Below are positions 30,478 to 32,748 of a DNA stretch of 64,000 nt, one piece after another. The notes beneath the pieces are model-generated. The model saw nothing but the letters and a program-made list of their open reading frames with translations. It was not told the origin of the DNA and did not search any database. Position 1 is the first letter of the stretch. Each line of letters starts with the position of its first letter. Made by a program: the position numbers and the translations under genes. Source of the stretch: Blastocatellia bacterium (GTDB lineage Bacteria > Acidobacteriota > Blastocatellia > HR10). The stretch spans positions 1 through 64,000 of the forward strand of contig JANWYV010000034.1 in the NCBI GenBank assembly GCA_025055075.1. Direction: 5' to 3'.

Positions 30478-31878
30478 ATGATGGATGACTCAAGTGTCAT
30501 AGCGGGATTCTTTCGCCTCGGACTCATTGTCTTTTTGGTTCTAGCCAATGGGTTTTTCGTCGCGTCGGAATTCGCCCTGGTGGCCGTGCGACGTTCGTGG
30601 GTGGAGACGCAAGCGGCCAAGGGCGATCGGCGGGCGCGCGTGTTGTTGCCCCTGCTGGATCATCTGGACGATTATATCGCGGCCACGCAATTGGGCATCA
30701 CGATCGCAAGCTTGGCGCTCGGGTGGTTGGGCGAGCCCATTTTAGCGCGCATGATCGCCGCGTTGCTGGAGCGCCTGACGATGGGATTGCCCGCGGATGT
30801 CTTGGGGCGCGTGGGAGCGCCTTCGGCGTGGCTCGGCCCGGTAGCCGTACATTCGATAGCGATCGCGCTGGCCTTCGCCATCATCACGTTCTTACACGTC
30901 GTCGCGGGAGAGTTGGCGCCGAAGACCTTGGCCTTGGAACGCGCCCCGCAAGTCGCGCTGCGCATCGCTCGACCAATGGCGGTGTTCTATCGTCTTTTCT
31001 TCCCCTTCGTGCGGTTGCTCAACCGTTCGGGATTGGGGCTCGTTCGACTGCTTCGTATTCCCCCTTCGCGCGGGCATGGGGGGATGTACGCCGAGGAGAT
31101 CCAGCATCTGATCAATCTCAGTCGCGAGCAGGGATTGCTGGAGGCCGAGGAGCATCAACTCATCAGCAACGTCTTCAACTTCACGACGACGACGGCGCGC
31201 GAGGCGATGCGGCCGCGTGCGGATATGGTGGCCATTGAGGCCTCTCTGTCGTTCGAGGAGATCCTGCGCGTCTTTGAGAAGACGGGGTATTCGCGCCTGC
31301 CGGTTTATCGCGGAGAGTTGGATAACATCATCGGGATCTTGCATGGGAAAGATCTCTTGCGTTACCTTCGCCAGCCCGAACGCTTTCGCTTGGAGGCGGT
31401 GTTGCATCGGCCGCTCTTTGTGCCGGACACCGCCCCTCTGGATGAGGTCTTGCGCCAGATGCGGCAGCGGAAGAGCCATCTCGCTCTCGTCGTGGACGAA
31501 TATGGAGCGATCGAGGGCCTCATCACCCTGGAGGACGTGCTTGAGGAATTGGTCGGAGAGATCGCCGATGAACATGATCTGGAGGAGGAGCGGATTCGCA
31601 TCAGGCCAGATGGGACCATCCTTGTGGAGGGAAGCGTCACGGTGCGGGAAGTGAATCGGCGGTTGCATCTGAGCGTCCCCGAGTCGGACGAGTACACGAC
31701 GCTCGCCGGATTTGTGATGACGCGACTGGGGAAACTGCCCTTGCCGGGAGATCGGGTGGTACACAATGGCGTGGCGTTCATCGTGGAGAAGGTCGAGGGA
31801 CGGCGGCTCACGCAGCTTCGCTTGGAGTCGGTCGCCTCGGACGCCGCGCGGGGGAACGCGTCCTCCGATCGGTCTTGA
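30478..31878 (+). CDS. CNNM/HlyC-CorC-type membrane protein with CBS domains
   Basis: 466 residues. The DUF21 (CNNM) membrane domain spans about 1-200, with LVLANGFFVASEFALVAVRRS and several hydrophobic helices. A pair of CBS domains follows (MRPRADMVAIEAS, ETGYSRLPVYRG-type and VVDEYGAIEGLITLEDVLEELVGEI). A CorC_HlyC C-terminal domain ends it (LAGFVMTRLGKLPLPGD). Related proteins export Mg2+/Co2+ or regulate ion transport; hemolysin activity is a historical label. The 3' end carries the -35 element of the next gene's promoter. Confidence 0.9.
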   Translation: MMDDSSVIAGFFRLGLIVFLVLANGFFVASEFALVAVRRSWVETQAAKGDRRARVLLPLLDHLDDYIAATQLGITIASLALGWLGEPILARMIAALLERLTMGLPADVLGRVGAPSAWLGPVAVHSIAIALAFAIITFLHVVAGELAPKTLALERAPQVALRIARPMAVFYRLFFPFVRLLNRSGLGLVRLLRIPPSRGHGGMYAEEIQHLINLSREQGLLEAEEHQLISNVFNFTTTTAREAMRPRADMVAIEASLSFEEILRVFEKTGYSRLPVYRGELDNIIGILHGKDLLRYLRQPERFRLEAVLHRPLFVPDTAPLDEVLRQMRQRKSHLALVVDEYGAIEGLITLEDVLEELVGEIADEHDLEEERIRIRPDGTILVEGSVTVREVNRRLHLSVPESDEYTTLAGFVMTRLGKLPLPGDRVVHNGVAFIVEKVEGRRLTQLRLESVASDAARGNASSDRS

Positions 31879-31904
31879 CGAGCGCCGAGAAGCTTTCCTA
31901 TACT
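31875..31904 (+). promoter_or_regulatory. Promoter of the DsbA-like selenoprotein gene
   Basis: TTGACG (31875-31880, overlapping the preceding stop), 18-base spacer, TATACT (31899-31904). The leader would be about 90 bases. Confidence 0.7.
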
Positions 31905-32001
31905 GAGCGCGCCTCGCCTTCACAAACATTCCCACCGCCGGGGGCCTTCGGGAGATTTCGGGCATCCTGGGGGCTCCCCTTTCGAGCACGAGGAGACGGA
32001 G

Positions 32002-32748
32002 ATGAGCAAAAAGGAGATACCGCCATTGGGGAATCCATATGCGCTCCCGCTTTCAATTCTGCTCGCGGGCGCCATGATCGCCGGGGCGATCCTCTACACG
32101 CAATGGCCGAGACGCTCGCCCACAGGTAACGCGCCGCCGACGGCCACGGCACCGGCGCCCACGGCATCGCCAACCGAACCGCGCGAAGTGATGGTGAACA
32201 TCGCTGAGGCCCCGCGTCAGGGACGTCCGACGGCGCGTCTGACGCTCGTTGAGTTCTCGGATTATCAGTGACCATTTTGCGCGCGGCACGTCCGGGAGAC
32301 GTGGCCACAGATCGAGCGGGAATACGTGCGTACGGGAAAGGTGCAGTACGTCTTCAAGGATTTTCCGCTGGAGTCGATTCATCCACAGGCGTTCCGCGCT
32401 GCCGAAGCCGCGCATTGCGCGGGTGAGCAAGGGAAATTCTGGGAGATGCACGGTCGGCTCTTCGCGGACCAAGCGGCGCTCAGCGCCGGCGATTTTCGGC
32501 GTCTCGCCGAAGGATTGCGCTTGGACCTGTCGCGGTTTCAAGCGTGTCTGGAGAGTGGCCGATATGCCGCGCGCATTCGTCGCGACCTGGCCGAGGGGAG
32601 TCGCATCGGCGTTACCGGAACGCCCACGTTCCTCCTGGGTTTCACGCCCCCGAGCGGCTCCACGATGCGCGTCGTGAAGATCATACGCGGGGCGAAGAGC
32701 TTCTCGGAGTTTCAGCAGGCCATTGAGGAACTCCTCGCCGCACAGTGA
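32002..32748 (+). CDS. DsbA-family thioredoxin with in-frame UGA: putative selenoprotein (U-P-F-C active site)
   Basis: 248 residues if TGA at 32269-32271 is read as selenocysteine (position 90). Before it: an AGGAGA ribosome site, one N-terminal transmembrane anchor (about 17-34), a Pro/Ala/Thr linker, then LTLVEFSDYQ. After it, in the same frame without break: PFCARHVRETWPQIE, FKDFPLESIHPQAFRAAEAA, and GVTGTPTFLLG with the cis-Pro. DsbA relatives have FSDYQCPFC here, so the TGA replaces exactly the reactive first Cys of CPxC, leaving C93 as partner. The cytosine-to-adenine-type loss expected of random decay is not seen elsewhere in the frame. A bacterial SECIS-like hairpin follows. It probably acts outside the cytoplasmic membrane as an oxidoreductase. 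A nonsense pseudogene or sequencing error is the alternative. Confidence 0.82.
32285..32306 (+). promoter_or_regulatory. Bacterial SECIS-like hairpin
   Basis: GG (32285-32286) and CACGTC (32287-32292) pair with GACGTG (32298-32303) and CC (32305-32306), with one bulged G (32304). The apical loop is CGGGA (32293-32297), starting 22 bases after the UGA. Known bacterial SECIS elements sit directly downstream of UGA, with the loop roughly 16-37 bases away and a G in its first two positions. This hairpin fits both rules. Confidence 0.6.

Follow-up and report, generated by a model that had tools for sequence, protein, structure and literature searches.

Premature stop or recoded selenocysteine

Does a reading frame interrupted only by a UGA at its catalytic cysteine encode a selenoprotein, or is it a broken gene? 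The question is raised by a dsbA-like gene near the middle of the window, the 64,000-nt stretch analysed here from the genome of Blastocatellia bacterium (GCA_025055075.1; 3.02 Mb, 59 contigs, 98.8% complete). This genome is labelled G000 below; other G-numbers denote genomes, C-numbers contigs and L-numbers loci. The + frame at 32002-32748 reads M...EFSDYQ-[TGA]-PFC...GTPTF...AQ-stop, and its single internal stop, the TGA at 32269-32271, falls exactly on the first active-site cysteine codon of a C-P-F-C site, as a preliminary description of the locus had pointed out. Under table 11 the gene breaks into an ORF of 89 aa (32002-32271) and one of 140 aa (32326-32748), which is the split that the same description had expected from standard gene callers. 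A TAG lies a few codons beyond the final TGA. The features of the gene are as follows.

31875-31904, + strand: sigma-70-like promoter match TTGACG-18-TATACT (consensus match only; 1 found, 0.2 expected)
31990-31995, + strand: GAGGAG, Shine-Dalgarno-like (from sequence by eye)
32002-32748, + strand: dsbA-like gene for a probable selenoprotein of 248 residues (U90 counted), including the final stop TGA at 32746-32748
32053-32091, + strand: predicted N-terminal membrane anchor helix, residues 18-30 (hydrophobic ~14-34; sequence and model helix)
32269-32271, + strand: UGA codon, putative Sec, U90 of U-P-F-C (homologous TGA in relatives; Cys in most others)
32278-32280, + strand: codon of C93, the resolving cysteine in U-P-F-C (no variation among 11 family members or 50 homologues)
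32287-32303, + strand: candidate bSECIS hairpin CACGUC - CGGGA - GACGUG (6 bp stem, 5 nt loop, loop starting 21 nt after the UGA)
32620-32625, + strand: T207-P208, the thioredoxin-fold cis-Pro motif (almost unvarying in 50 homologues)

Candidates for the promoter and ribosome site that had been proposed upstream of the gene are thus both present. We put at roughly 95% the probability that the gene specifies an extracytoplasmic thiol-disulfide oxidoreductase of the DsbA type, with a membrane anchor, in which UGA 90 would be decoded as Sec through SelB, tRNA-Sec and the hairpin, giving a U-P-F-C redox pair. The machinery of the genome, the TGA of relatives, the hairpin and selection past the TGA all support this assignment, first made in the preliminary description.

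The UGA is shared by relatives and followed by selected sequence

Within the genus, the orthologue in G005 (84% identical to the window gene) carries TGA, while the G004 orthologue and the C45-type paralogues carry TGT (Cys). Comparison across 297 Acidobacteriota genomes revealed a TGA at the corresponding codon in another nine that belong to the branch (G271, G223, G239, G145, G300, G255, G236, G118 and G161), with U-S-F-C instead of U-P-F-C in the G145 homologue, as well as in three more distant proteins with a longer N-terminal region (G046, G258 and G282). A TGA at exactly the same codon in ten other genomes is more than chance would give. An alignment of homologues, a check suggested earlier, showed Cys at residue 90 in most of them, so that the UGA aligns with a conserved Cys, as expected of a bacterial selenoprotein. 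Homologues sharing the TGA could have displayed further decay, an outcome that would have spoken against a selenoprotein; they show none. The contig scan returned mainly Cys homologues, partly because one seed pattern demanded TGY.

Related arrangements were also observed elsewhere. Three Acidobacteriota genomes (L148, L149 and L150) encode a C-terminal DsbA-like domain with UPFC by TGA, behind an N-terminus that by eye resembles a peptidyl-prolyl isomerase chaperone. On two Chloroflexota contigs (L054:2401-3597 and L060:2401-3597), a DsbA-like stretch with UPYC (TGA) is followed 588-591 nt on by a DsbA-like stretch with CPFC.

In a phylogenetic tree the TGA-bearing proteins cluster (5 changes, compared with 10.4 in shuffles). 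The Cys protein of G004 groups with the Sec protein of G005, and the Sec protein of G000 falls outside this pair (96/81), for which a Sec-to-Cys change in G004 would be the simplest reading. For G000 and G005, which both have the TGA, dN/dS was 0.18 upstream of it and 0.11 downstream, so the part past the TGA is translated and maintained as protein.

These comparisons bear on two simpler explanations. A change from TGT or TGC to TGA takes a single base and the G004 orthologue has TGT, as expected if the TGA were a nonsense mutation and the locus a pseudogene or a source of truncated protein. However, the low downstream ratio in G005 comes with the same TGA and no frameshifts, and the codon recurs in the nine distant homologues and in a paralogue. 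We consider a pseudogene very improbable, effectively excluded by the selection past the TGA. An assembly or sequencing error at a single base is conceivable for a draft in 59 contigs, but is even less probable than a pseudogene and likewise effectively excluded, given that independent assemblies of other species share the TGA codon.

The genome encodes the selenocysteine machinery

The preliminary description noted that a selenoprotein would need selA, selB, selD and tRNA-Sec elsewhere in the genome, and all four were found. G000 encodes one SelA (479 bits), one full-length SelB (645-aa frame; 372 bits, over the cut-off) and one SelD (370 bits, over the cut-off), the last with its own in-frame UGA in HGAG-U-ACK. 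The tRNA-Sec scored 75 bits with the Rfam model and was predicted by ARAGORN as 98 nt with anticodon TCA. Of six genomes examined in the family, five contain tRNA-Sec and the other is 73% complete; G004, which has the Cys orthologue, retains tRNA-Sec. Among the TGA-bearing genomes outside the genus, it was detected in 8/12 at the threshold used; at that threshold none was seen in the other four (two 72-75% complete, two 96-97%).

The frame would also be open if UGA encoded some other amino acid throughout the genome, or were read through without programming, since this holds whichever residue TGA encodes. Reassignment or unprogrammed readthrough, which we rate as improbable as a sequencing error, was rejected on three counts: the upstream neighbour (30478-31878) and the dsbA-like gene both terminate in TGA, wherever a long frame contains an internal UGA the codon occupies a catalytic Cys/Sec position, and the Sec machinery is complete.

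Other UGA genes in the same genome

Further selenoproteins of G000 were sought by sequence pattern and by RNA model. Six sites matched TGACCNTWYTGY, the pattern for U-P-[FY]-C, and four of them fall within long open frames with a thioredoxin fold; with the pattern reversed as a control, this genome gave zero matches. With the RNA model, convincing scores came only from the pair of DsbA genes and their Cys paralogue. Besides the window gene, the four frames comprise a second DsbA-like UPFC selenoprotein (G000:C57:2189-2764, L034), with a signal-peptide-like N-terminus, a coiled-coil-like linker and a hairpin nearly identical to that of the window gene; a SelL-related AhpC/TSA redox protein with UGA in U-P-F-C (G000:C10:2683-2694, L157, - strand; NF040769, 177 bits, over the cut-off); and a protein disulfide oxidoreductase with UGA in U-P-Y-C (G000:C35:119711-119722, L159, - strand; TIGR02187, 279 bits, over the cut-off). 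Two further thioredoxin-fold genes of known redox families thus have an in-frame UGA placed in a site of this type. With SelD added to the four frames, G000 probably encodes at least five selenoproteins.

A conserved hairpin follows the UGA

Bacterial SECIS elements have been described, in a review on prokaryotic selenoproteins, by a loop of 3-9 nt, a stem of 4-16 bp, a G in the first two loop positions, a distance of 16-37 nt from the UGA and an MFE <= -7.5 kcal/mol (PMC13188914). The hairpin at 32287-32303 has a loop of 5, a stem of 6, G at loop position 2, a distance of 21 nt and -9.7 kcal/mol, all within these limits. An Rfam search of the gene region gave nothing credible. Folding 52 nt as a single sequence gave no stability beyond that of shuffled sequences (z 1.2); the hairpin was therefore tested by comparison, and its case rests on conservation.

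A hairpin of the form ACGYC-CG[GU]G[AG]-GRYGU was present in all 11 distinct Sec-type sequences of the branch. Its position is constant, with 21 nt separating the UGA from the loop; the loop is 5 nt long and has G as its second base and G or U as its third, and the stem has 5-6 bp. In these 11 rows, 89% of alignment cells pair, compared with 17-50% when the alignment is slid by 1-3 columns, and pairs covary at alignment columns 19-35 (C-G/U-A) and 23-31 (U-A/C-G). The Sec row of G118 breaks one stem pair, and the outermost pair is absent in six of the 11. Cys homologues form on average 2.5 of the six pairs, against 5 or 6 in the Sec branch. In the Cys orthologue of G004, two synonymous C-to-T changes convert two C-G pairs to U-G, leaving a hairpin of -6.0 kcal/mol. 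The protein accounts for some of this conservation, as the hairpin bases also code for the conserved ARHVRET; the excess of codons that G000 and G005 share within the hairpin (12/13 vs 80/124, p 0.06) is suggestive only.

Taken with the machinery, these observations are consistent with a conventional bacterial route, in which the hairpin just downstream of the UGA would recruit SelB and tRNA-Sec and codon 90 would be translated as Sec.

Fold and direction of redox chemistry

With Cys substituted at position 90, the protein matched Thioredoxin_4 (4e-28, 99 bits) and DSBA (1.5e-16, 61 bits), both over their cut-offs and across the TGA, in keeping with the proposed continuation of the fold past it. 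The AlphaFold model (mean pLDDT 89.6) has an N-terminal helix at 18-30 followed by a DsbA fold, with U90 just before the helix at 91-109. The best matches among solved structures (Foldseek E 1e-11 to 1e-13) were Wolbachia alpha-DsbA1, C. diphtheriae DsbA/TsdA and B. subtilis BdbD. The protein has the thioredoxin fold with helical insertion, the CxxC-type site and the cis-Pro of the DsbA family (PF01323/PF13462). All 50 homologues conserve C139 and C182, a pair that may be joined in a second disulfide.

We suggest that the protein is exported to the envelope and held there by its N-terminal anchor, where the Sec selenolate would be the attacking residue of the U-P-F-C pair, forming a selenenylsulfide with C93, and where the enzyme would work as a disulfide donor or exchanger. 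A 428-aa VKOR-DsbA fusion encoded in the same genome (G000:C18:34210-34617; L155:742-2028) is a possible redox partner that might recharge it. The gene is flanked by CNNM/CorC-type and PD-(D/E)XK genes, which offer no functional clue; no DsbA/DsbB-type genes flank it, and the redox direction is for this reason a guess.

A DsbG-like reductase or isomerase, rather than a disulfide donor, is quite conceivable, if short of an even chance; it would share the selenocysteine mechanism with the preferred explanation and differ only in redox direction. Sec often serves reductive chemistry, the Cys paralogue (C45) could be the oxidant, and the closest NCBIfam family, NF041057, is named DsbG-like in a review. 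On the other side, the fold matches DsbA/BdbD, the AlphaFold model contains no DsbC/DsbG-type dimerisation domain, and the VKOR-DsbA fusion is present.

We tentatively propose that Acidobacteriota possess a selenium-dependent branch of envelope disulfide chemistry, with parallel Sec and Cys DsbA paralogues per cell and with Sec and Cys swapped between sister species that both have tRNA-Sec. The sister-species set (TGA in G000 and G005; TGT in G004, with tRNA-Sec retained and the hairpin weakened) is a clean natural Sec/Cys exchange in DsbA and, if the proposal is true, lets close relatives serve as a natural experiment on the advantage that Sec gives an exported DsbA.

Comparison with known systems

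DsbA-like selenoproteins had been noted in the preliminary description as reported from marine metagenomes. This is correct as far as it goes, but the published surveys also place them in cultured bacteria (PMC1794560, PMC2398784, PMC9312934), the DsbA-like UxxC proteins of PF01323 being recorded from marine metagenomes and from Anaeromyxobacter, Desulfovibrio and Desulfotomaculum (PMC2398784, PMC1794560). DsbA-like (PF01323, UxxC) and DsbG-like (PF13462/NF041057, UxxC) selenoproteins are both listed in PMC1794560, PMC2398784, PMC9312934 and PMC13188914, and the first of these already counts four selenoproteins in three families for Acidobacteria (PMC1794560). The literature searched yielded no biochemistry of a Sec-containing DsbA.

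The window protein shares with the PF01323 selenoproteins a DSBA domain over the cut-off and Sec for the first Cys, a likeness drawn from their description; its own best Pfam match is Thioredoxin_4. BdbD, Wolbachia alpha-DsbA1 and C. diphtheriae DsbA/TsdA have the same fold and active-site place but carry Cys where the window protein would have Sec. Closest in type is NF041057 (Rcas_1661 family thioredoxin-like (seleno)lipoprotein), which likewise combines a Thioredoxin_4 type domain with UxxC and matched residues 42-243 (1.6e-37). The score of 129 bits is below that model's cut-off of 190, and other members of the branch score 103-131, which points to a branch without a name in existing models. 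In contrast to this lipoprotein family, the window protein, from Acidobacteriota, has no lipobox cysteine and a plain membrane anchor. Because standard annotation splits the gene and the NF041057 cut-off is not reached, the branch is likely to be overlooked. The preliminary description knew of no such protein from this lineage; the lineage is Acidobacteriota, in which several families carry such genes. Sec-containing DsbA-type enzymes are already known as a kind, to which the window gene very probably adds a conserved Acidobacteriota branch.
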